64,000 nucleotides of DNA from Lepidurus packardi. Lineage: Eukaryota > Arthropoda > Branchiopoda > Notostraca > Triopsidae. The notes under the pieces are model-generated. The model did not search any database. It was not told where the DNA came from and saw nothing but the letters and a program-made list of their open reading frames with translations. Made by a program: the position numbers and the translations under genes. Position 1 is the stretch's first letter. Each line of letters starts with the position of its first letter. Positions 1 through 64,000 of the stretch are shown piece by piece. The DNA lies in the NCBI GenBank assembly GCA_023053545.1, contig JAKZAN010000213.1, positions 1 to 64,000 of the forward strand, given 5' to 3'.

Positions 1-274
1 CCCAACCCCAACCCCAACCCCAACCCCAACCCCAACCCCAACCCCAACCCCAACCCCAACCCCAACCCCAACCCCCAACCCCAACCCCAACCCCAACCCC
101 AACCCCAACCCCAACCCCAACCCCAACCCCAACCCCAACCCCAACCCCAACCCCAACCCCAACCCCAACCCCAACCCCAACCCCAACCCCAACCCCAACC
201 CCAACCCCAACCCCAACCCCAACCCCAACCCCAACCCCAACCCCAACCCCAACCCCAACCCCAACCCCAACCCC
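1..274. repeat. Telomere, (CCCCAA)n C-strand
   Basis: The window opens with about 45 uninterrupted copies of CCCCAA, the C-rich strand of a T2G4 telomere, so base 1 is at or near a natural chromosome end. One unit near position 70 carries five C residues instead of four. The array ends in a CT-rich junction (about 275-300) and runs without satellite sequence into ordinary single-copy DNA. The repeat is the one known from Tetrahymena and relatives; Oxytricha and Euplotes use C4A4. The first gene starts 216 bp further in. Confidence 0.97.
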
Positions 275-10708: not shown

Positions 10709-10949
10709 GGGTTGTACAGAATGAAGTGTGTATCTATGTCGTTGTGGGTAATTAAAGCGACCTCTGTTTTGTTTCTATTGTTTTCTGTGGCTTGGGGAGT
10801 GTCGAACCTTTATACTTGTTCTTAGCACTATAGATTGTTAGTCTTTCGTTTATATGACTCTCTTCTAGAAATATTTCAGTTTTCGAAATCATACTTTCCA
10901 CGAAATCTACTCTACCTATCTACATCTTCTTGTACTCTCCAAACAAACA

Positions 10950-11638
10950 ATGCGCCGTCTCAGTCCTGACGACTTCCAAGATAACTACCTCAAACTCATC
11001 ATTGTCGGCAACAGTGGTGTCGGAAAGACCAACATCCTAATGCGCTTCTGTGACAAGAAGTTCAAAAATAACTACATTGCAACTATTGGAGTCGACTTCA
11101 AAGTCAAGATCATAGACATCGAAGGCATGAACATCAAGCTCCAACTCTGGGATACTGCCGGTCAGGAGCGATACAAAAATCTCACTAAAAGCTACTACAA
11201 GGGCGCTGCTGGTATCATACTCGCATTCGCACTGGACGACCATAAATCCCTCGTAGATGCAGGTAAGCAAGTCAGCATAATAATCCCTGGTTCTTAGAGA
11301 CTTGGATGAGGCAGATTACCGATAATGTCGACAGCGACTGTCGCATCGTTGTATTAGGCAATAAGAACGATCTGAGTAAGTAGGAAAAACAGGTGACCCA
11401 GGATGAAATCGACCGGTTCATCAAAAAGTATAATGTGTAGTACTATGAGGTGAGTGCCAGGGACGGCACGAACATCGACAATGCGTTCATAGAGTTGGCG
11501 ACAAGACTAAAACGGTAACGTTATGGAGCAGTGGTGTCTACGCCCAGCCAGTTCACAAAAAGCTGCACTGATATCGCTTTCCCGAAGATAAAAAGTGGGA
11601 TTCAGTATGGAGGATCTTCCAAAAGAAAGTGCTGTTGA
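10950..11638 (+). CDS. Rab GTPase
   Basis: Two exons (35-nt intron, 11263-11297) give a 217-residue Rab. G1 is GNSGVGKT (residues 20-27), switch I holds IATIGVDFK, G3 is WDTAGQERYKNL, G4 is NKND and G5 is SARDG. The C-terminus ends KRKCC, a dual-cysteine geranylgeranylation signal. The sequence is of the Rab1/8/10/18 type; I cannot name the subfamily safely. Splicing restores HKSLVDAETWMRQI across the junction. It controls vesicle docking or transport at an endomembrane. It follows the GOST gene on the same strand after 241 bp, but no operon is implied. Confidence 0.9.
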
Positions 11639-11727
11639 AACTGCGTACTTTTACTGTTCTCTTAAATTCTGCACTGCCTTTTAAAACATTGTAAGCCCAG
11701 GATAGAGTAATAAACAAATATTAAGAG

Positions 11728-14034: not shown

Positions 14035-14159
14035 TCAGTGTGTCCAACCTGTGACTGATCCAATGAAAGTAACTCAAGGGTGAGTTAGGCTTTGTTTCGA
14101 AGTTTCCTACAGAATATAGGTTTATTTATACTGCTATAACAATATCAGGCGAGGCCGAG

Positions 14160-15326
14160 ATGTTCGTTCAAGAATTTCTTTCGACGACTGCCAGCGGCCA
14201 CCCGCCTACAGCCAACATCGCCGAACTCGACAACCTCCTCACCGCAACCGACACCATCCTTCAGCCCCTCCGCAGCCTCCGCGAGTCCTAGTCCTTCGAC
14301 CAACGATGTGCTGCCCTCACTGCCCTCCATGACGAACAGGCCATCAGAGCCGAACTCAAATAACAATTCCTGCGCGGCCTCAACTCCCGCACCTTCGACT
14401 TCCCTCCCGAAGCTGTCGTCGATCTCCTCGTCGAACTCGGCTTCCCCTCCGAGGGCTGGAGTCTTGAGTTCATTCGCCAGCGTGCCGATGCAGTCGTGGA
14501 TCGCATATACGACTGTCTCAGAGACACCGAGAACGCAGTGGGACTCACTCCGACTCTCAAATTCGACCAGGACTGCAAAACCTTGGGCGAGGGACTCCTC
14601 AGGGACATGCGCAGGAGTGGGGGCAGCGACAGGAACCAGTACCAGCAGCTCAACCGGGCGAAGGTCGTGCAGTTCGATGAGCTGCGTACCAACATCCGAC
14701 AACACGGTCGCGAGGCTCGCTTCGCACGAGTGCTTGACAAGTCCCTCGCTGAGCTCGTGGCCACCCTGCGCAAGAAAGCATTCCAAGTGGAGGAGACATT
14801 CGGCAAAAGCATCTACGAGCTTCCCAGACCATCGACCTTCGCCCTTCCCCCAGAGCCTGAACCCTTCCTCCCCGGGAGGTCAGGCGGAGGCGGGGAACAT
14901 GCTATCGATGAGCGCTACAACAACTTCACGTATGCAGGCAGACCCATCACTCGCGACACGGCAGTCGCTCCTCCATAAGAACCCATGTTCTACCCCCGTC
15001 TCTACTAGACAGCTTACCGGAGCAGCAGCAGGGGCTTCTTCCAGGATGGCGTGTAGGCTGTGCGGAGTCGGCAGGGAAGGGGGTTCGAGTCTTCTCCTTT
15101 GCGCAATGGCCTCTACAACACAACGAGCGAGTTCCACACGCGACTGGGTCCTGGAGTGGATGCTCTGGGCGATCGAAACGGACTCCTGCAGCCCCAGATG
15201 TACGGAGGACGGACGGTAGGAGACACAGGAAGGTTCTCGCACTTGGCCAGTATGACCGCGGGGTCCCAGGGTGGGTCTTGGGGATTCGACGCGCGCACGC
15301 GCTACGGTTCACGAGGAAGGACATGA
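14160..15326 (+). CDS. GC-rich 388-residue orphan
   Basis: A single exon runs from ATG 14160 to TGA 15324-15326. It is strikingly GC-rich: codon third positions are mostly C or G (CTC, CGC, GTC, AAC), unlike its neighbours. It still uses UAG and UAA as Gln, so it is adapted to this code. The N-terminal half is helical and Leu/Glu-rich with a DRIYDCLRDTENAVGLTP segment. The C-terminal half is Gly/Arg/Ser/Tyr-rich and ends RTRYGSRGRT. I recognise no domain. The tail composition is that of a filament- or RNA-associated protein, but that is only a guess. Both ends of this unit recur joined together at 35101-35183. Confidence 0.7.
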
Positions 15327-15435
15327 ACCAAAGAGAAAGGGTACGGGAAAAAGATGCTGATAAAGTTCAATTATGTATGAAAACAAACGAGGTGCTGTTC
15401 TATTTTCTATGATTCCAAGGTTTTGAAGCTATGTG

Positions 15436-33934: not shown

Positions 33935-34983
33935 ATGGGCAGATTCTTCCTTCTCTTTGCACTCCTCGCAATCGCTGTCTCGACTCCTCTTTGGGATGCT
34001 CCCAAAGCATGGAGTTGGTACAAAGCCTACAACTGGTCCGCAGGAGTCAACTACATCCCCTCTTACGCTGTCAATGTCCTGTAAATGTGGCAGTCCTACG
34101 ATCCTATTTCCATTGAGAGAGAACTAGGGTGGGCAGAAAAACTTGGTTTCTCATTGCTGCGAGTGTTCCTCCACACTAAGCTGTACCTAGCCGACCCTGT
34201 AACCCTAAAGATCAACATGCGTCGATTCCTGACCACAGCCGAAAACCATAAACAAAAAGTAATGTTTGTATTGTTCGATGACTGCTGGAACTATGAGTAC
34301 CACTTGGGCAAACAACCCGATCCTATCCCAGGAATTCACAACTCTCAATGGGTTCAGTGTCCAGGTTTTGAGAAATTTACAGAAGAACAGACGAGGACCT
34401 ATGTGACCGATCTTTTATCCACTTTTGCACGCGATAATCGTGTGGTCATGTGGGACTTGTACAATGAGGTTGGAAACTCCGCACATCTCAACAACTCTTA
34501 CCCTTTGATGAAGCTAGTCTTCGAGTCTGCGAGGTCTGTGGACATCGACCAGCCGATCACTTCAGGGCACTGGAATAACGATGCAGGCTTCAAGTCCATA
34601 AATGAGTACATTCTGTCCAACAGTGATATCATCACTTTCCACGCCTATTGCGATGGAACCTGCACTGAGGCTGCAATTAGAAAGTTCACAGGTAATCCCA
34701 TCACATTTTCAATTTAGCCATCGGTAGACCCACTGTCTGCACGGAGTATATGGCCCGCCCTCTCTTGTCGACATTCATGTCACACTTACCCATTTTCAAG
34801 AGGGAAAACGTATGGACGATTTCTTGGGGCTTCGTCTTCGGGAGGAGTCAGACTTATTATCCTTGGTGGTCTAAGTAAGGTGCCCCGGTCCCTGAGGTTT
34901 GGTTCCATGACGTTTTGGACACCGAAGGCAAGCCATTCAGCCAAGTATAGACTGATTTTATTAGAAATATAACTTCATTCTGA
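33935..34983 (+). CDS. Secreted glycoside hydrolase (GH5/clan A-like)
   Basis: Two exons (26-nt intron 34692-34717) encode 340 residues. Residues 1-16 form a signal peptide, so the enzyme is secreted or enters a lysosome/phagosome. The fold reads as a (beta/alpha)8 retaining hydrolase of clan A: WDLYNEVGN carries the acid/base Glu178, TFHAYCDG follows strand 6, and RPTVCTEYMAR carries the presumed nucleophile Glu262. ISWGFVFGRSQTYYPWW matches the C-terminal W-rich strand. It probably cuts beta-linked polysaccharide from food microbes or plants, but substrate and subfamily cannot be read. Ciliates often hold such genes, some by transfer. Confidence 0.8.
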
Positions 34984-35100
34984 TCGCATGACCAAACAGA
35001 GTATTAACATACCCAAAAATCATTAAAGAAATAGGAAAAATATGAGATCCATAGTGATAGTTTGTGGTCCTCACTAGGAGTAACAAAAATATTATATTGT

Positions 35101-35183
35101 TTTCTCTTTGGTTCATGTCCTTCCTCGTGAACGGTAGCGCGTCGAATCCCCAATACCAACGCCTCGCCTATTGTTATAGCAGT
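35101..35183 (-). pseudogene. Internal-deletion relic of the GC-rich orphan gene
   Basis: On the minus strand, 35183-35161 matches the leader just before the GC-rich gene's ATG (14130-14155), with three bases missing. After a 7-bp joint, 35153-35101 matches that gene's last codons, stop and first 3' bases (15278-15338), with one 8-base gap and one substitution. About 1.1 kb of the middle is absent. Similarity stops abruptly at both outer edges. No inverted terminal repeats or target duplications are visible, so I do not call it a transposon. The surrounding 34984-35297 spacer holds nothing else I recognise. Confidence 0.75.
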
Positions 35184-35297
35184 GAGTATCCCTTTTCCCG
35201 AACAGTATGCTACTTGTTATTTGGTGGATAATTCAAAAGAGAGAGTATTTCAAAAGATAAAGTTTCGATCTTTTATATAGTCGAATCAGCAGGACCG

Positions 35298-38200
35298 TCA
35301 TGGGCTGTTGTTTTCCGGGAACGAAGCGTCTCTGCGGTCTGACCTCTCGTTAATATTAATCTGTTTTCTGGACTCATCCTCCATCTTCTCTTGCGCTTTT
35401 TCGCTCTATTCGAAATCAAAAACTTCAATCGCATTTTGTTCTATCTTGACGAGCTTCGTATTAATTCTGCCCTCACCGTCTAACCTCGACCCATTGCCTT
35501 ATTCATTCTCGTCTGACTGCCCCCAACCATCAGGCCCTTGCTCTCCTTCGCCCTCTTCGTCAACTTCCAGATTTTTCACGCACTTTATCAGAATTTGGGG
35601 AGGGTTATTGCCCTGTTTAAGATGAGGCAAGTAGTCGCTATTCTCACTCTCATCCTCCTGCCCTGGTTTTTGTGTGGGGTTATAGTTGTTATCGTCCTCA
35701 TCTGACATTACCTTTTGGTCTCCGATGTCTAGGATTTTCCTGGGCTTTATCATGACCAGATTACTGTCTGTTTCTTCTTTTTCCTAGCCATTTTCTTTGG
35801 CAAATGCTTCCACAAGGCATTTGAAGTAGTCTTTTCCACAGCATTGTCTGCCAATCTCTGCGAAAAGCAAGAAGTACATGTATACCATCATTGGTATAAA
35901 CACCAAAAGTGTCAGCACAATCAATACTCCTCCTAGGACTATTTTCTGAGGCTCTCCCAAAATGTCCGATCCCAGGACCACAATGCAGAAGAACATCAAA
36001 ACCAAAAGCAGCAAGAACTCAGTCACTGCATGATATATATTCTATATCCTGCTGACGAAAGGCTTGTAGATAAGGATGACTGAGAAATGAATGAGACAAG
36101 CCAGCGTCAATAGGCCAAGTAAGTACCCAGGATAGCTCGACTTCAAAGGATAGTTCGTGATCACAGCCACCACAATACCGGTGGCCAGTTTACGTGAGTA
36201 TTTGTAGACGACCACATAGGATGTATAGTTGACTTCTACATTAAGGCGATAGATGAATGTAGTCAGGGGCTGAATGATTTCTTCAGGAGGCTGGTCATAG
36301 ATTTTCTGTCCCATAAGAACAAACAGCAAGAAGAACGGAACTATGATCAGCACGATAATCAGTACTACTGACACGAAGTTGCTGATGTAGTTGTAGCCAG
36401 TTTGCGTGCCGAACACTGTCAGCTGGCTGAAGCTGAACACAGCCAAGTAGGAATAGACGCAATAAGTCAGATCGTTGGCGTAGTTCCATCGAATTCGCTC
36501 CACTACTGTATGAACGAACCGTGAAAACAAAGGCTTATTGGACAAACTGGAGAATTATCGGGCCTAGTCAGCAGGTTTGACAGAAGAGATGTCTGACACA
36601 GGGGCTTTGCCAACAATAAAGAAGAAGTCGATCAGCTTAAAGATAAAGAAGATCCCTAGAGTTCCAATCATGACCAGAAGTTGAGGAGCAGTATTTCCGA
36701 GAAGAGTTGGGTCTGAATCAAACTCTCCGTATTTGTAAGGCGAGGGACGGATGGTGTTTGTGTCGAGAGTCGGGTCTACGAACATCTGCGGGATGAAGAG
36801 CAGGTGCGAGAAGCCGAAGCCGAACAGGTAACTATTCAGATTAGGAGCGTAGTCAACATTGATCAGCGTTAGGATGAAAAGCAGTTGGAAAAAGTCCAGC
36901 AGCGGGTGGCAGATGTACCCAACTCCGAACACAATCGCGACAATGAAGGTTAGCAGGAGGATAATAGATAAGGCTCTGGAAAAGCTAATCAGGGAGCTGT
37001 AAGAAAGGAATGAGCCGTCTGTTGCATACTCGTCGTAGTTGAGGAGAATACTCGACGAGTTGATATTCTGCAGAATCTTGGGGTAGGCCACAGAGTGATT
37101 GCGGAAAAGAGTGGCAATACGCTTGGGTTATGAAGTACTTCCCATTTGGAGCTAGAGAGTGAGAGAAGTAGAAGTGCTCTTGGAAGTCGTGAAGGGAATC
37201 TATATTATGGCATCACTATTCAGGAGTCTGCTTTGGGACTCAGTGAACAGATTATCTAGAGTTAGCCTAATAATCGATTGAGCATTTTCACCCAAGGCAG
37301 TGACACTTTAGCTAAACCAGAGCTTTATGTACAGTCGATTGTATATGCTTCGGACCTGCGTGTCGAAGCTCAGCAAGCGATTGCATTCGTCTAGCTTATT
37401 TCCTTTTGCATCGTAACAGCTCTAACAGAACAGGGAACTGCTGATATAGTAGTTTTAAGGGCAGGTTTCCACACAAAGCTGCTGACCAGCCAGTTTAATC
37501 AAGTTGTCAGAACAGTTCAGTACGCATCGACGTGTTCGAGGGTTCCCAAAATATGGTGCTGTGCAGACTCCCAGGCAAGAAGGCAGCACAGGATCTCTGA
37601 ATGTGTTTACTGGGCACGTATCGCCCAAGATGCACTGATTTTGGTACACCAGATATCCCTCAATACAGGTTAGGCAGTTGGTTGCTGAGCTGCATGTTCT
37701 ACAGGGGGACTGACATTGGTAGCATTGGTAAGTTTTGTTGTCTGGGTACCACAGCGTGGGGCAGGAAGAAATGCACTGTCCAGGTTGTGTGGAGATCATG
37801 TACTTACTTCCTGCGCAGATAGTGCAGACAGCTATACTCCCGCTCATTACGCATTTCTGGCAAAGGGATGGGCAGGTCGAACAGTTTGTTCCGTTTTCAT
37901 AGGTTCCATCAGGGCAGATTTGAACACACTGTCCTGACACGAAGAGCAGATTATTCAGACAAGAAGTGCACAGAAGAAGGGAACTGCAAGACTTGCAGGG
38001 CGAGCGGCAGGGTAGGCAGGAAGTGCTGGAGGCATCAGCATAGAAGCTGCTGTCACACTTGGACACACAAGTCCCATTCTGCAAGAAGGATCCTGAGTTA
38101 CAGGATAGGCAATAGGATGAAGTATTCACACAGGTCTGGCATGTTGAGGAGCACTTATCACAAGTCAAGGAGTTAGAAACGAGGCTCGAAAAAGTTCCAG

Positions 38201-41200
38201 GCAGACAATTTGCAACACAGCTGAAGTTCTGCAATATTCCACTCCAGCAGCTCAAGCAGCGAGTCAAGGATAAACACTATCTGCATGGGGCAGCACAAGG
38301 AAGACACTGGGGGGCCTGCAGTGATGTTTAAATATAGTATTGCAGAGGACAAGATGTATTGGATATACACGTCCGGTTGAATAGAATCGACAGTTGTGAA
38401 GAAGTGTTGCAAGATAAGCAAGTCCTGGAAGTAGTTATACACGTTAGACATGTTGACGTGTTGCATCTCTCACACGTTTTGGTTGTGGAGTCGGCATAAA
38501 ATCCAGTAGGACAAGAAGTGGCGCAAGTCTGGTTCGAAGCGATCAAAAAACCTGTGAGACAGGAGCTGCAGAGAATTTGCGAGCTACAGGTTGAGCAAGG
38601 AGAGATACACTGGAGGCATGCAGACTGCTGGGTGTTAAGGTAGTATCCTCTAATAGAACTGCAGTTCGCAGCCGTGATGCAGGTACCTTGGTAAATATAA
38701 AACGAAGAAGCACAAAGAGTGCACCAGGTGCTGTTTGAACAAGAAGCACAATTGCTGATGCTGGTGTTGCATGAGATACATACTTTGTTGATGTAGTCGG
38801 GGTATTGGGTGCTTGGACAAAAATCGCATCTAAAGGTCTGAGTGCTCAGAAACCCGATTTGGCAAGACAAGCAGTTGAGAGAGTCAGTGCACGTGAGGCA
38901 CGGGAAGATGCATGCTCTACATTGTAATGTCAGATTATCCGCGAAAGTTCGTTGGGGGCAAGCAGTCACACAGGTCGAGTTTGCCAGGTATTTTTGAGGG
39001 TTTGCAGAGGAAGGAGCGCTTATTTTGACGCAGCTGTTACAAGAGGTGGCATTCAAACAAGTAAGGCAGTCTCCAGAGCAAGCTATGCACGCAGAATTCA
39101 TAATATATTCGGTAGAGGCGCATTGTGACAGGCATTGGCTACCTCTCAATAAAAATGGGTTAAAGCACGATAGGCAAACTGAAGAAGCGTTGACGCATGT
39201 CGTACAAGGATATGAACAAGGCTGGCAGATGCCTGATTGGTTAAAGAATCCAGCGTTGCAGACAGCCAGACACTGTGTGCCTTGAAGTACAGTGTTGGAT
39301 ATTGCGGTACAAGTCCGACAGGATGTAGCGTTGCGGCAGGTATTACAAGGAGATTGGCACTTTTGGCATGTAAGAGTAGCTGCTTACCCAAAATAGGTGT
39401 CCTAGCATGTCGTAAGGCATGAAGTTTTTTGAAGTTGGGACAGGAATCCGGTTTGGCATGAAATACAGGATGTCGGAGAAGTACATTTCGAACAAGGAAG
39501 AGAGCATGGAGAGCAAGAGCCCAGGCCAGTCTGGGAAATAGTGTTGTAGGAGAAATCAGGACATGTTCTCAAACAAGAAGATTGGTGAAGGTAGAAATTA
39601 GTAACACAGCTCAGGCAAATGTCGGCAGAAAGACAGCTGGAACAGTTGTTGATGCAGGAAACACACACATTCGATGTAGTGTTGGGAAAGAATCCAGAAG
39701 GACACGTTGCTAGGCAACTCTGAATGCTGAGGTATCCAACGATGCAACTCGTACAAGCTGTGCCAGAGAGACAGTTCAGACAGGGTGATTTGCAAATTAC
39801 ACAAGTATTGGAGCTTGTTTCAAGGTAGTATCCACTACTTGGGCAACTAGCCAAGCAACTTGTTCCGAATAAAACGGACCCACTAGGACAGGATAAGCAG
39901 TTTGTTGCTGTGATATTGCATGTCAGACAGTTGGAAGAACAGTTGAGGCAGATGTTATTGGACGAGGATGGGTACGTTCCAGACGGACAGCTTGCCACAC
40001 AGTTTGAACCATTGTAGAAACCGATTGAGCAAGAGTAGCAGGAGGTTTCATTGAGACAGGTTCTGCAAGGAGTGTTGCACTGCAGGCAGATACTGCCATT
40101 GCTATAGTGTCCGCTGGGACATGTCGTCACGCATGTAAAATTCTGAGAGTAATAAAGGAATCCTGAGCGACAAGACAAACACTGAGTCGCTGATCTGCAA
40201 TTGACGCACGGACTTTGGCACAGCAAACATATAAAGAGGGTGGAACTGGTGTTAGGATAGTAGGTGTCGGGACAGGTCGAAACACATGCCTTTGAAGTGA
40301 AGTTAGATTGGTTGCCTGCAGGGTAATAGTGCTCGAAGAGTCCACCACAAGAGGAGACACACTGATTATTACTGACAAAAAGCGATGATATACATTAGAG
40401 ACAGTAGTTAGCATTGCTACAAATGCGGCAGTCGGACGAACACCTAAATGCTTGGATAAACAACTCTGTGATTCCAATGAGACCAAAGGGGAACGTTGAA
40501 GTCTTATTCCCAACGAGAGTTGAGGTGATGGTTATGCGCACACTCTGTTCGTTAATATTACGGCTGGAGACATTGGTGTAAAGTGGACTGCACATTGTGC
40601 TGAGATTGGAAGCCGTGAGAGAGAAGGAGTCTGCATTGTTCGTTGTGGAATTGTCGCTGAAAATTATCCTAACGCTCAGAGTCTCATTCCCATTCGGAGT
40701 ATAGGAAGAAAGATAAAGAGGATAGAGTTTCACGGCAACAGTCAGCTTGTAGTAGGGTTCGAAGACACGTGTCCAGGAAATAGAATTACTGCCCGAGTAG
40801 ATTGTCTGTTCGTTGCAGACTGTAGTTACAATCGATGGAACAAAGTTTTTTGACGAGTAGGCGGCATAGTAAAAAAGCTGGTACACCGCTCCAGAGTTAA
40901 TTTAGTAGGCGGGGATGCATGAGAAGGTATCATTCGACCACTGCGAGAAAGTTTGGATAGTACCTGATTGGCATCCATAGCTGCAACGGAAAGGTTGCGG
41001 ACCTCGGGCACCATTTTGACATAGCACTGATGCTCCGTAGACGCACGCTCCTCCTGAGAAATAGTAAAGGGGTTTACATGCAATACAAGTCAGCCCGCTT
41101 GTACTGCTGCATTGCATACAGTTCTTTATGCTGCTGATGCAGGTATCCGTGATATTGACGCAGACACCATTTATGAGGTTGAAGTTGAGGGAACAGGTAT

Positions 41201-41795
41201 CACAGGTCGAATTGCTGGAACAACTCAGGCACCCTGTGATACAAGGGCTGCAGAAGGTTCCAGCCGCGACTTGTTTGAGATAACCCGGAGCACAGGTGGT
41301 ACAGGTTGTGGGCCCTGTACATTGGATGCAATTTTATCTGCAGGGCATGCAGGAGTCGCCATTTTTCCAGTATCCGTCTAAACAGCTGGCGACAGTCGAT
41401 GGCGTGTCGCAGCTCCGAACGTAGTCGACCTGGCACTTTTGGCAGACACCACTCGCAAATGCGTATCCGATATGGCAGGCAGAACAGCTAGACGGACTCG
41501 TGCAAGTCATACAGTTGGTCTGGCAGGGCTCACAGCTGCCGAGGGTGGGGCTGAAGTAATAAGAGGATTGACAGTTGGCCTGGGATGTGCAGTTGGTGTC
41601 GGAGGAGCAGGCCTTGCATCGATATGGGCATATGATGCATGTGGACTGCTGGAGGAAGTAGTAGGGGGAGAGACAGGACGTGCAGACCGAGGAGGTGCAG
41701 GTGCAGAGGGAGGAGTCGCACTGCTGGGCCTGGGAAGGGGAGAAGACGAAGAGGAGAAGGAGGATGGTGATTATGTTAATTCTAAAGAATTCCAT
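35298..41795 (-). CDS. Giant cysteine-rich (furin/GFR-like repeat) multi-pass surface protein
   Basis: One exon of 6.5 kb, from ATG 41793-41795 to TGA 35298-35300, encodes 2165 residues. A signal peptide (about 1-23) leads into roughly 1400 residues of Cys-rich repeats of about 45-50 residues, with CxxCxxxC-type knots and motifs such as CLSCxxGxxL and CxxxCPxGxY. They resemble the furin-like/growth-factor-receptor repeats common in ciliate surface proteins. An interrupting non-repeat domain lies around residues 290-470. The C-terminal third has about ten membrane helices and then an acidic cytoplasmic tail. It may be a sensor, adhesin or channel-like receptor; function is not readable. No second gene start is apparent within. 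Confidence 0.85.
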
Positions 41796-41968
41796 GGTGA
41801 AGGTGGTGTAAGGAATAATAATAGTTTTGGAGGAAAGCTTATGATTGAAGAAGAACAGCCATTTATCAATTTCCGGATGGAATGTTAAGTATTCGAAATC
41901 CCTCTTTGAATATTTAAAGATATGTGCCTATCATTCTGACACTCATTCGCCTACCCATTGCTTTCCTT

Positions 41969-48333: not shown

Positions 48334-48811
48334 TGCAGAAGTTTAACAAGGGAATAGGAGTATTGGAGGTGGAGTTGGCAAGAGGCGCACGAAGCAATCT
48401 TTATCGTGCATACTTAATGACTCTGTGCTTTTTGATTTGACGGAGTTGAGGATCACGGCTAAACAGCATAGAAGGGGAAGGGCGAAGCATTATATACTCG
48501 GAAGGTATTGGAGAACGGATACTCTTTCTTCTAAAGCTTCAATATCTAATTAGTCCGGAAGATTCAATTAATAGTGACCTGATGCATGGCTCAGGCATTT
48601 ACGGGAGCCGCATTGTGAAAGTCCAATTTCCTTGATCCTAGTTCTAACAATCAGTGAAGTTTAAACCCCGTGGGTTGCGCTGCGACTTCTAGCTTCTTAA
48701 ATTTTCAGCGTCCCTACCTTTTTATTTTATCACTTCACTCTTTCTCTTTTCCTTTGTCCATTTCTGGATAAACGCTTTTTCCCATTTTACATACTTTATA
48801 CTGTTCTACCC
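48334..48811. other. Intergenic region, 478 bp
   Basis: This lies between two divergent starts. The left half is GC-moderate without a convincing frame. The last 110 bp before the kinesin ATG are T/C-rich. I looked for tRNA-like arms around 48650-48700 and did not find a consistent cloverleaf. Confidence 0.4.
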
Positions 48812-51241
48812 ATGAACCAACCCTCCAATCCCAACCATAACAATCCCCCCCGCTAAAACATCAAAGTTGTCGTACGCATACGCCCTCCTCTTGATCCTGA
48901 GCTCAAAGGAAAATCACCTGCCATCTGCCTTCAGCATTAGGGCAATCATAAAATTACTCTCGTAGCCCAACCCCGCTCCAAGACTGCTTCCCAGATGGCC
49001 AAAGAGTTCTTCTTTGATCGTGTATTCCCATCTACGACTACTCAATAATAACTGTACTCAAAAGCATGTTTCGGGATGGTCGAGTCTGCATTACAGGGCT
49101 ACTACTCGACTCTATTGGCGTACGGACAGACGGGCTCGGGTAAAACGTACACGATGGGCGGAGATCCTGATTCTAGATAACAAGAAGGTATGATCCCGCG
49201 TGCCTTCAAGCATTTCCTATCAGCCGCAGAGGCACCTGACGTTCAGTTCAAAAGCATCATCAAAATTAGTTTTCTTGAGATTTATAACGAGTAAATCCGG
49301 GATTTACTCTGCGCAGGAGAACCACAGTGTCGTGATCTTAAGGAGATGCCCGATACAGGTGTCTTCGTTAAGGATCTATCTACCTACCCAGTCAAGTCGA
49401 TCAAGGAGTTTTACGAATACTACAACAAAGGCGTCCAGAAACGCGCTACTTTCGCCACCAAAATGAACTCCAGTTCTTCGAGGTCACACTCTATCCTCAC
49501 AATATACATTGAAGTGATGGAAGAGGTGGCTGGGAGCAAACCTATTTTCAGACTAGGTAAAATTAATCTGGTCGATTTGGCGGGCAGCGAAAGGCAGAAG
49601 AAAACAGAATCAGTCGGCATGCGCTTCAAAGAGGCTGTCAAAATCAACCTCAGCCTCATAGCTCTCAGCAATGTCATCTCAGCACTCGTTGACAGTAAGA
49701 AAAATACGCATGTGCCTTATCGAGACTCCAAACTGACTCGGATTCTACAGGACAGTTTCGGGGGACACACGAAGTCAACTCTAATCGCAAATGTTTCCCC
49801 AGTGGAGTACAACTATGATGAGACACTTTCGACCCTGCGATATGCGAGCCGGGCGTCATTAATCAAGAACACCCCGATCGTACACATTGACCCTCGAGAT
49901 ATGCTAATCAAAGAATATTTAGCCGAAATCCAGCGGTTAAGACTGTTATGCCAAAGCTCTGAGGAACAATTAAAGAAGACGGTACCATCGAATAAAGAAG
50001 ATCTGAAGAGACTGCAGCAAGAAATTGAGGGAAGATACAAAACTGAGCTTGACCGTAAAAATCTATAGAGGAAACGACTGCAGAGTGAGAAGAACTAAAT
50101 AGACTTGGCTCTGAGGGAATAACAGCACAACAATTAGTTACTCAGATTGAGATTGGCAGAGTTCCAGGGGATCACAACCTATCAGCGCCCCAACAGCATC
50201 AAGTCTCCGCAGAACCTCAATCGCAAAGAAGCCATGCGTAAGTACGAGGAAGAACAGCGTGAAGTAACTCAATCGAGAAAGGCTTACTTGAAAGAATAGT
50301 ATTAGTTAGAGTTTGATTCTGAAACAGAAGACGCAGCAGAGGTGAAGAAGTCAAAGGGTATGTCCCTGCAACAGCAGATTTAGCGGCTAACGCGCGAAAA
50401 CAAAAGGCTGAAACAGAAGCTGTATGTTTCGAAGATGGACAACCAGGATCTGTGCCACGAATTTCAGGAAGAAAGAGAGTACTACTTAGAAATAGTCAGA
50501 TAACTGGAGAAGGAAGAGGCGTTCCACTACTCGGTGTGCCTGAAGATGCTGACTGCAGACGAACTGGAAATCATCCGTTCTAATTCTGAGTACGTGGAAG
50601 ACCGCAAAACATACAAAGTCACACCGTTTCTGCTCAAAAAGCACGAACTTCACTTTCCCAAGATTCTGAGTGAGTATCAGATTGAGGACATGATAAGCCA
50701 AGACAAACAGACCCGTCGACTCGTCATTCAGAACAACATACTCAATCACAAATCTTCGGGCTCGCAGCTCGCTAGCCAAGTCACTCGGCCCAAGGCCCAG
50801 GAATATAATTCAAGCAAACTAAACACCGATAGGTCTCATGATTGCGTGCTACGCTCCAGGGTCATCGGCACAGAAGTAGCAACTCAAGCAGCTACTCCGA
50901 GTCGGCTAGAGCCTAAAAGAATTAAGCAAATCTGCAACAATCCAAGCATTTAATACTACAGTCCCAGAAATTAAGACATCACGCGGGTGCAGAGTTCGGC
51001 CCAGAGAATCTTTAATGAGCATGACAATCGAGTGGATCGGTTAACAGCCAGTTCCAAGACTTCTATCAAAAGTAAACAAATTACTCTTAAAGAACTTGGA
51101 TAAAATGTGTAGATCTTGTATAACTAGAACAGAGGGGCATCAGCCGAAAGCTACAGTCACATCATGTAGGAAGCACTCCCGAATTGCGGAAGGTTTCGAC
51201 TTCTCCGGGGAACAGGAGACTGGTGCCACTGGTGCCGCTGA
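48812..51241 (+). CDS. Kinesin-2-like motor
   Basis: A single exon encodes 809 residues. The N-terminal motor (about 15-345) has [20 protein letters not shown] (switch I), DLAGSERQ (switch II) and [19 protein letters not shown]. The neck region [26 protein letters not shown] is close to the 'NEDPKDALLREY' block that marks kinesin-2 (KIF3/KIF17/OSM-3). A coiled coil of about 200 residues and a basic Ser/Arg-rich tail follow. Kinesin-2 drives anterograde intraflagellar transport, fitting a ciliate. Whether it is hetero- or homodimeric cannot be read. Stop TGA 51239-51241; several UAA/UAG in the motor are Gln. Confidence 0.9.
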
Positions 51242-57619: not shown

Positions 57620-60600
57620 TCAGAATACCCTACAATCATCCTTGTCCTTGCCCGATTTTTTCGTCGCGTCCTTACTTGTGGTTGTTGTCGGTTTACCGCT
57701 ACTATTTGCCGCAGCATTTACTGTAGGGGTGGTCGTTGGTTTCTTCACCTGCCCTGAAGTAGCCGTGGTGGTTGCTGCAGCTTTAGAGTTTTGAACTGCG
57801 GCAGTGCCAGCACTCGTACCCGCAGGAGTTGTTGGAAGATTCATCTTGGCTCCTGTTGTGACTTTGGGGGGTTCTGTCACGACTTTATTTTTTAGCTCGT
57901 CTGCGAGCTTGGCTTTTTCAACATCGGGAGCGTCTACAAAAAAGTAAGATGGTCGATAAAGAATGTCATGGGGAGGTGTTACTACTATTACTGACGATGG
58001 TGCTGATGGCGTTGGTGGGTGGGTTAGATTTCTTGGTAATGGTTGGTTGTTTGAGGAGTTCGTTGCCATAAAGTTTGAAGACCAACTAATAAGTTAAAGG
58101 AAGTTAAAGAATGGGTGAGAGTAATTGTTACATTGGTGTTTTCCAGGTAGTTGAGAGTCTCGTCAGTGATCTTGTCGAACTGATGGGTCTTGATGTAGTT
58201 GAACGCTGGGTTTTTGGTTTGCTGCTTCACTTCTTCGGTTTTGAACACCTACTTCTCGCCGTCGGGATTCTTCATCGAATATTCGACAAAGATATTCTCG
58301 AAATTATCGGGTATCTTTGCGCTTTCGATCTGCACGTTGAAATAGAAAGGCTTTCCGATCAGCTCTTCTGGCTCCACTTCATCTTATTCATCCATCTCTG
58401 CAGACAAGTTTCTCTTACCTTCTTAGTCTGTGGGAATAAGGTTCACTTTTAGCTCTCCACACTGATGGTTTTCTCCAATAACTGCCAAGTCTGCGGGGTT
58501 GTCGAACATGTATACCAGCCCTTTGAATGTCATAAAGCTTTTGCCAATCAGGATAGGTTCAGGTGGATCCCAGAACGGGTCTTCAGCCTGCGTAATGGTC
58601 GGGACGACGCCCGTGTCATAGTACTTTTCGATCATCTACTTGATGATGTAGTAGCGATTACTGAACTTGTTGAGGTCCCAGAGGTACCGATAGCCGGCTT
58701 CACGGTTATCCACTTGCACCTTAATGTTCATTTTTTATCCCGTAGACTCCTCCTCTTGACCAAACAGAAGCATCTTCACACTCAACGATATATTGCGCTT
58801 GAATTGCTGTGCAATCAAGTTGAGCTCGATAACCTTTGGCATCGTCTTCATAAGTTTGTTCTCGAAGTAGTACTTCTCCTTGACTTTGACCTTGCGCTGG
58901 TTTTCCTATTCCCTGATCTTTTTCTTCTGAACCTCAATTTCCTTTTCTAGCTGCAGAGCCTTGAGTTGTTGGGTATGTTTGCGTTCTTACTCCTGCCTCT
59001 TCGCCTCTAGTTCAGCCTTTTCGTTCTCCATCTTCTCCAGCATTTCCTTCAATGCCTTTTCGTTCTCCTCCTGCTTTCTTCTGATTTCAGCAAGTTCTTC
59101 TTATTTCTCCTTTAGTTTTTTCATCTCAGCTTCTTTCTGCTGCCTTTCCTGCTCTTTGAGGATATTGTCTTCTTTTTCCTTGGAGACGTAGAGTTCTTGT
59201 TGTGCGAACTCCCAGTCAATTTATCCGGTAAACTCCCGAGGCCTTTCCTCGCCTCCAGGAATGATAACAAGGAACATACTGTTCACTCCGAATTTGAGTC
59301 TGTCATTATTCATGAGTTCTATAGTTTCTTTGGAGATCTGACCATTCAAGTAGATATAGTTTTCGCTGAGCAATTCCTCTTCGTCGTCTATCTGAGGTTC
59401 TAAGATGTATTTGTCCCCCACCATCCGAATCACAGCTAATACAGGCAGTATTCCATGTGCGGCAATCTCTATATCGTTCTTTGGCTCCATATTCTTTTTG
59501 CCGAACCGAGTTTCCTCCTTGTTGATCGAGTAATTAATTTTGCGACTCAGGAAAGGATCTTCATTGAGGTTGCTTAGATAAGGTTTACTAGTATCTACCT
59601 TCACATAGAAGTCGTCTTGATTAGCCTTCTCTTGCTTGATTTTCTCGTCTTTGGTCATGTTGTAGTTATTCATCATCTGGTTGTTAAAATTGAGTTCCGA
59701 CTTGGCCTCGTTGAATTTAGCCAGAGATGCCTCGTCATCGATGTTGATACCCATCTTGCTGAACTGTTCCATGAGTTTCTTTAGCTTCTCGTTCTCCGTC
59801 GTCAGTTCACGGATCATCTTATCAGTCTCAGACTCGTTGATGGTAGCTTTGTTCTGGATTTTCTTGGCTTGATCGGCGTAACGGAGGGTGGATAGGGTCT
59901 CTTAGTAATTATCAGTTGCTGGGGAAATGGCGCAAATCATCAGAGTTTTGGAGTTTCCTCCCAAGGCATTCTGCAGGATACGTGTCAGACAGGAATCACG
60001 ATAAGGCACAATTGTATTTTTGCCCTTCCCCATAGCTTTGTCTGCAAGAGCACTGATGACCAAACCCAGTACGGACAAGGACTTGTTGATGCCTGCTGCT
60101 TATTTGAGCCTATCACCTGTGGCTCCTGTCTTGCCTACTTTCTCGCTTCCTGCCAGATCGACCAGATAAATAACAGAAAGTTTTTCGACTTTCTTATCGT
60201 TAACCATTTGCCGTTGGCGGAATTATATCGATATGATAGTATGTGCGCGACTCGAGGAAGCGTTCATTTCTGTGGCAGCGACTGAACGATTCCTACTGCC
60301 TTCGTCCATCTTTTCTTCGATGGCTTGGTAGGAATCCATGAAGTGTTTGGACAAACCCTCCACGTACACTCCGAGTGTCTTGTGCTCGCGGATCTTGTGC
60401 CCTTCTTTTGGACGTTTATTGATCGGAATCAGCAAATCTTGGACCTTCTCGTTGTAGATTTCTAACATTGATAGGTTGACTTCAAACTCATGCGACTTGT
60501 CCTCATTGTTTCTGATTCGGTTAAAGATCTACTCGCAGGAGATAGGGACAATACCCTTGTTGGCGCCGTACCCGATCATGGAGTAGGACTTACCAGCACC

Positions 60601-60915
60601 CGTCTGACCGTAGGCGAACAGACAACAATGATATCCTGCCCATGCATTGTCCAGAATCTCTACTCCGACTGCTTCGAATACTATTTGTTGGTCGGAGTAT
60701 TTAGAGCCATCAGACACGAAGTAGCCCCTTTCGTCGGTGTGAAACTGATCATGCGACCAGAACGAATAATCGAAGGCAAAATCCCTATTTTTTTTGGGAT
60801 CATCAAGATCGAGGAGCTTGGTGGTGTTGCCGACCATGTCGACACAGAGTTTACAGTTGAGTTCGATTTCTCGTGCGTTGAAAGGTCGCACTCGCATGCC
60901 TACTTTGACACTCAT
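57620..60915 (-). CDS. Kinesin-3-like motor with FHA domain and CaaX-like end
   Basis: Three exons (introns 58086-58131 and 57934-57991) encode 1063 residues. The motor (about 1-345) has [44 protein letters not shown] and [17 protein letters not shown]. After a neck coil, an FHA domain lies near 455-565 ([16 protein letters not shown]..., [17 protein letters not shown]), the combination that defines kinesin-3 (Unc104/KIF1/KIF13). A 200-residue charged coiled coil and a Thr/Pro/Ala-rich tail follow. The protein ends DDCRVF, matching a CaaX box with a polybasic segment upstream. No PH domain is visible, so a lipid anchor may replace it. Stop TGA 57620-57622. Confidence 0.88.
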
Positions 60916-61288
60916 GAGTGATGGTGTGCTAGGATGGGTATAATGAAGGGAGTATGGATGTAAATTCTGTGCGTATTGTTAAGTGTATATTATTGTAGTG
61001 GGATAATATTAAACATTGATTAAAAGGACGAGTTCTTGAATGGATGAAGGATTTTTGGAGTATATGTCTGTGGGTAATGGGATGCAGTGAAAGGGAGTAA
61101 TTCGTAGTTTACACGTTACCCCATGCTGTTCCGTATTCTGAATACACTGTCACTATTTTTATGCTTATTTTAAAATCTCCAAAAAAAGAAAGACACTATC
61201 GTAATTTATTGCAATCAGGTGTCAATAGCTTGAATTCCGATTTCCTTTCTTCCGTTCTTCTCCTCATACATCATAAGTGTTCAACACT
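60916..61288. other. Intergenic spacer, 373 bp
   Basis: This holds the upstream region of the kinesin-3 gene and the 3' flank of the next minus-strand gene. It is AT-rich near the kinesin start and pyrimidine-rich towards 61290. No frame, repeat or RNA structure was recognised. Confidence 0.4.
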
Positions 61289-63289: not shown

Positions 63290-64000
63290 TCAGAATTGTT
63301 ACATTAAGACATACTTCACGTACACCTTCTTAGGCCTCAGCTGGGCATGGTGTTTCTTACTCTTCTTCTTGGCCTCCTGCTGGCTGCTTTTGGGCTTCCT
63401 CCCACATTCCTCTCTGGGACTGGAGCATTCTTCCCCATTCAAGTAAGATTATGGATTCACGTCCAACTACTTTTATTTATCCAATCCTGCTGTTTCCTCA
63501 TTTCCAATATTCTCCCCAAGACTATGTTTCTTTTTCGCGGTCCCGATACTCATGCTAGCCCTGAGCTTGTTCTTACCAGAATTCCTCCTTCGATCGCTGT
63601 CAATGGCCTTTATTGTTACAGATGTACTTAAGGGGTTCGGTCCAAAAGATTTCAGAAATAGTTTTTTATCACCCCTTATTTGATCGGTACACTGTCCGTT
63701 ATCTTTAGATAAGGGAAGGGTCGCAGAGGGCAGATGAAAGGTCGTGGGCAACAGACTGGTTCTTCGAGGCCTGGAACTTTTAGGATCTGTGCAGGTGAAG
63801 AAGTTGAGTTAGTGTTCTTCTCGCGCGCAGGGCTGACTGAACAACTGATGAGTTTCTCCTGGAGACAGTTTGTCCTTCATGATTGCTCGATTTCGGTGAG
63901 AAATTTGGAAAGCCTTGATATCAACATCGTAGACTTCTTCAATCTGCTCCTTAATTATCTGCTCCTGCTGGTAGCTGTACTTCAGCCGATCGATGAGTGC
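63290..64000 (-). CDS. Lys/Ser-rich protein, 5' end beyond the window
   Basis: An open minus-strand frame enters from the right edge and ends at TGA 63290-63292, giving at least 236 residues. The visible N-terminal part is helical and charged (QEQIIKEQIEEVYDVDIK). The remainder is Ser/Lys/Arg-rich and disordered, with SRPRRTSLLPTTF and a C-terminal lysine-rich stretch before KVYVKYVLMQQF. No domain recognised. Gln codons include several UAA/UAG. The start codon and any upstream exons are not in this window. Confidence 0.6.

Follow-up and report, generated by a model that had tools for sequence, protein, structure and literature searches.

The question raised by this locus is how the two extreme ends of one gene came to lie side by side about 20 kb away from it, in inverted orientation and without the interior between them. 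The short copy occupies positions 35101-35183 of the window, by which we mean the whole stretch of DNA that was analysed, covering contig C202 (69,997 bp) from its start to base 64,000. The first-pass annotation had likened it to what a mobile or eliminated element would leave after loss of its interior, or to the trace of an imprecise developmental excision. We favour a simpler reading, to which we assign a probability of roughly 0.8: that an orphan gene present as a single copy was duplicated once, at a distance and in inverted orientation, and that the duplicate is now a non-functional remnant. It looks like an ordinary pseudogene remnant and not a mobile or programmed element, and we propose no function for it.

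The nature of the chromosome bears on which mechanisms are worth considering. The contig has C4A2 repeats at its start (window 1-270) and G4T2 repeats at its end and, with telomere repeats at both ends, constitutes a complete small chromosome. Together with the long frames of the window, which contain in-frame TAA and TAG and stop at TGA, these ends indicate that the contig is a ciliate macronuclear chromosome. A second contig (C203, 70,588 bases) likewise has C4A2 repeats at its start. Two kinesin motor genes lie about 7 kb apart in the window (48578-51238 on the plus strand and 57880-61149 on the minus strand); when TAA and TAG were read as Q, E or K/E, the scores on the two kinesin domains were within 4 bits, and when they were read as Y, the scores fell 7.8 and 5.7 bits below those for Q. 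Another contig (C6) exceeds 6 Mb (near position 6,164,356), compared with 70 kb for the chromosome studied here, and may represent a bacterial companion or another type of molecule.

Read on the minus strand, the remnant consists of a leader block followed by a tail block, and the matches previously noted for both were recovered as described. The leader block (35161-35183, minus strand) copies positions 14130-14155 but is 3 bases shorter, and its 23 bases are identical to the donor apart from one 3-base gap. The tail block (35101-35153, minus strand) copies positions 15278-15338 with one mismatch and one 8-base gap, the latter shifting the frame. Between the two blocks there are indeed 7 bases (35154-35160, minus strand), as the first-pass annotation had it, but they are best read as diverged donor sequence (15271-15277), which they match at 5 of 7 positions, so that no filler need be invoked. 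Furthermore, the BLAST match of the tail reaches position 35160 and so adjoins the leader block. When all leader ends from 14145 to 14164 were scored in combination with all tail starts from 15255 to 15289, the best chimera for the minus strand from 35183 to 35101 was 14130-14155 joined to 15271-15338, with a score of 132 against 127 for the runner-up. The earlier description of two gene ends joined, with about 1.1 kb gone, is borne out, as 1,115 bp of the parent (14156-15270, plus strand) are absent from the remnant. Taken as a whole, the remnant aligns with the parent over 83 bases, of which 3 are mismatched, with gaps of 3 bp and 8 bp, and it lacks the parent's ATG. The best junction joins GAGGC to GTGGG and contains neither TA nor any exact repeat or microhomology; AGG is common to its two sides only when shifted by one base.

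The parent gene (14160-15326, plus strand) comprises 388 codons and a TGA stop when TAA and TAG are read as sense codons. The donor leader (14130-14155, plus strand) begins 30 bases 5' of its ATG and stops 4 bases 5' of it, and the donor tail (15271-15338, plus strand) contains the last codons, the TGA stop (15324-15326) and 12 bases further. The length of the frame alone proves little, because two further frames in the same GC-rich stretch are open for 398 and 406 codons. A better argument for its being a gene is its high GC3, which is 0.69; four further long frames in the window have values of 0.50-0.57. It is a GC-rich, single-copy orphan; the chromosome that bears it has a GC content of 44.6%. 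When its protein was searched against the genome, only the parent itself and one chance-level match (E 2.6) came back. Pfam offered no family with an E value of 1 or less, the solved structures gave no match with an E value of 10 or less, and the pattern matches in the viral (2) and prokaryote (19) contig collections yielded none that was confirmed. A foreign origin for this GC-rich gene, which we considered, is unsupported by Pfam, the solved structures and the two contig collections, although these are weak tests for a ciliate orphan. A single-sequence structure prediction for the protein gave a mean pLDDT of 39.2.

How secure are the two matches, and where do they stop? Across the whole assembly of 108,557,554 bases, the tail match has an E value of 2e-13. 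The leader match scores 37, a value that none of 19,818 random 100-bp pieces of the window reached, the best of them scoring 28. Self-comparison of the window at E 0.01 gave only one other pair (51 bp, 76%), a count taken after removal of pairs in which the first member begins within the initial 300 bases, which are telomeric. Both outer edges are sharp, as had been observed before: the flanks of the remnant are unlike those of the parent, and its 100-bp flanks align to the parent no better than shuffled sequence does (96% of 2,000 shuffles reached the score of the left flank and 61% that of the right). A candidate second piece of the leader in the right flank (AACAATAT) was rejected, its score being reached in 29% of 2,000 shuffles. 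The first-pass annotation had also seen neither inverted repeats nor a target duplication. A search of 35051-35233 gave no inverted repeat of at least 8 bp, and of the 29 inverted pairs in 14080-15388, none of the 25 listed joins the two ends of the parent. A direct repeat of 5 bases, TACTC, lies immediately at the left edge of the remnant, with its second copy 18 bp past the right edge, so that no target-site duplication abuts both edges; a repeat of this kind occurs at 1,411 of 50,000 random positions (about 3%). The 3' edge bears no poly(A) and continues into ACAATATAATAT.

Whether the remnant belongs to a dispersed family was addressed by searching the assembly (108.6 Mb in 344 contigs) with the remnant and its flanks, the parent, the leader in its parent form and in its remnant form, the tail end, and a 6-kb stretch bearing the remnant; the pattern searches tolerated 3 mismatches. 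Only the parent, the remnant or both were returned, with no third place among the best candidates, which were the ones scored, so that more divergent copies may have escaped notice. Additional copies sharing these outer edges, which the first-pass annotation had looked to for support, did not appear: there are two places in 108,557,554 bases, both on the same one of the 344 contigs, about 20 kb apart and in opposite orientation. The lack of more copies among the candidates scored is the first of the outcomes that the annotation had named as refuting its reading, and derivation from a mobile or eliminated element is not supported. When positions 300-60000 of the window were compared with the assembly in three pieces, 9 matches were listed, the window's own place being left out and one candidate per piece going unscored. 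Two of these are the parent and remnant seen from either side, three belong to a Rab-like ORF and four to the two kinesin ORFs, making the parent and remnant the only listed match outside such gene families in the 59.7 kb searched. The ORF near 11 kb, which we take to be Rab-like by its motifs, is a small-GTPase gene at about 10725-11640 (plus strand), apparently split over two frames; its DNA matches show 71-83% identity and lie on three other contigs. Self-comparison of the contig at E up to 0.001 gave the parent and remnant alone, and that of C203 (70,000 of its 70,588 bases, same limit) gave one pair at 68% over 603 columns and another at 73% over 74 columns, both comparisons leaving out pairs with a member that starts in the first 300 bases.

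The remnant sits in the middle of a spacer of 314 bp (34984-35297, GC 0.376) between two converging genes. On the plus side is a GH5-like gene (Pfam Cellulase, E 9.2e-5, 22.5 bits, slightly below the cut-off of 23.5); the left edge of the spacer depends on reading the ORF at 34669-34983 as the end of this gene, which requires an intron or a frame change. On the minus side is a cysteine-rich protein of 2,210 amino acids with furin-like repeats (35301-41930, minus strand), the frame of which ends at 35298. A tRNA scan of the window under the bacterial code came out empty. A structured RNA was considered and rejected: no Rfam family reached its gathering score in the window, and one weak match that overlaps the tail end of the remnant (22.3 bits, cut-off 50, E 0.37) was taken as chance.

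The reading that we prefer is a decayed partial duplicate. The remnant matches one parent gene, significantly and in collinear order, and the reading frame of that parent is broken in it, both by the missing ATG and by the 8-base shift. A segment running from about 30 bp 5' of the ATG to 12 bp past the stop would have been copied, in the germline, into the spacer about 20 kb away. Free of constraint, the copy would then have lost 1,115, 8 and 3 bp by deletions, provided that the parent shows the ancestral state at every gap. With three gaps and as many mismatches over the 83 bases aligned, the remnant is in keeping with a sequence that is free of constraint and losing DNA. Alternatively, two snippets may have been copied in a single template-switching repair of a break. 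Both a deletion-trimmed copy and break-repair snippets would be ordinary repair scars, and the evidence does not separate them. Four points count against the preferred reading. Both edges lie just outside the frame, a placement that would be favoured by an mRNA template but not by DNA breaks at random; the TACTC repeat may be a target duplication, although such a repeat turns up by chance at about 3% of positions; the best junction has no exact microhomology; and the assembly searches, which scored the best candidates, may have passed over diverged copies.

The first two of these points are those that would be expected of a retrocopy, in which reverse transcription of the parent's mRNA would have jumped from leader to tail and the product would have been inserted 20 kb away. 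Edges just outside the frame are where short untranslated ends could start and stop, TACTC is a possible 5-bp target repeat, and a template jump would account for the loss of the interior in a single step. However, the tail runs into ACAATATAATAT with no trace of poly(A), although the rest of the copy differs at only 3 of 83 positions; the second TACTC stands 18 bp off the right edge, as happens by chance in about 3% of cases; and landing sites would be expected mostly on other chromosomes. On balance, we regard a retrocopy as unlikely. A short non-autonomous, MITE-like element derived from a mobile GC-rich gene would share with the remnant only its shape, with both ends retained and the interior gone. 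The sequence occupies only two places in the assembly among the best candidates scored, there are no terminal inverted repeats (none of at least 8 bp around the remnant), and the parent has no relative in Pfam, the solved structures or the viral and prokaryote contigs; of all the explanations considered, this is the least probable. An assembly artefact or chimera is scarcely more credible, as the 3 mismatches and 2 short gaps that set the remnant apart from the parent would be unlike a mis-joined copy, and the contig is capped by telomeres on either side.

Ciliates eliminate DNA in development, and the window apparently lies on a ciliate somatic chromosome, so that a programmed or imprecise developmental excision has also to be weighed. 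Here, the germline would hold a full-length inverted copy, the interior of which is removed as the somatic chromosome forms. Imprecise ends would be tolerable in a spacer, and no feature of the junction contradicts such an event. The best junction has neither TA nor an exact short repeat, which tells at most weakly against it; in some ciliates, the boundaries of excision are loose. In Paramecium and Tetrahymena, the old somatic genome is described as a reference that guides elimination, and if such a comparison operates here, the interior should be shielded by the intact parent that the same somatic chromosome carries, which again tells weakly against excision. Moreover, the mismatches and the 8-bp and 3-bp gaps require ordinary germline mutation in any case. 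Nothing observed here points to developmental excision, and we consider it very unlikely. Its most specific form, in which development removes the interior of a full-length inverted second copy and leaves a footprint of 83 bases, with position and not sequence marking what is removed, is slightly less probable still. Were it true that a germline interior is removed in this way, it would matter, as the same sequence stays elsewhere on the chromosome. As found, the remnant matters little: as a decayed partial duplicate, it is the trace of a single duplication, followed by decay, in a compact genome. Among the papers listed for the organism, the mechanism and genome scanning, we found no report of this locus, which is not proof that none exists.

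Several known systems offer comparisons. In Paramecium, truncated silencing transgenes (PMC4937312) resemble the present case in that a truncated copy exists alongside an intact gene. However, those copies are injected transgenes, and the authors go no further than suggesting that a pseudogene could silence a homologous gene in a similar way. Alternative DNA splicing in Oxytricha (PMC4684698) likewise concerns ciliate somatic loci with gene parts in common, and is described there as the use of single germline segments by several somatic genes. If a single segment served several genes in this manner, the common parts should be identical; with 3 mismatches and 2 gaps between them, the remnant and parent need two germline copies. 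Templated insertions at repaired double-strand breaks in yeast (PMC11724301) also place short inverted copies elsewhere. The abstract of that report describes mostly copies of 5-34 bp made by foldback, whereas the remnant measures 83 bp and its source is 20 kb away. Finally, although the remnant departs from the usual partial gene duplicates in retaining the two extreme ends alone, it resembles them, and truncated pseudogenes, in being a fragment of one gene at a second place, with its start codon lost, a frameshift and sharp edges.
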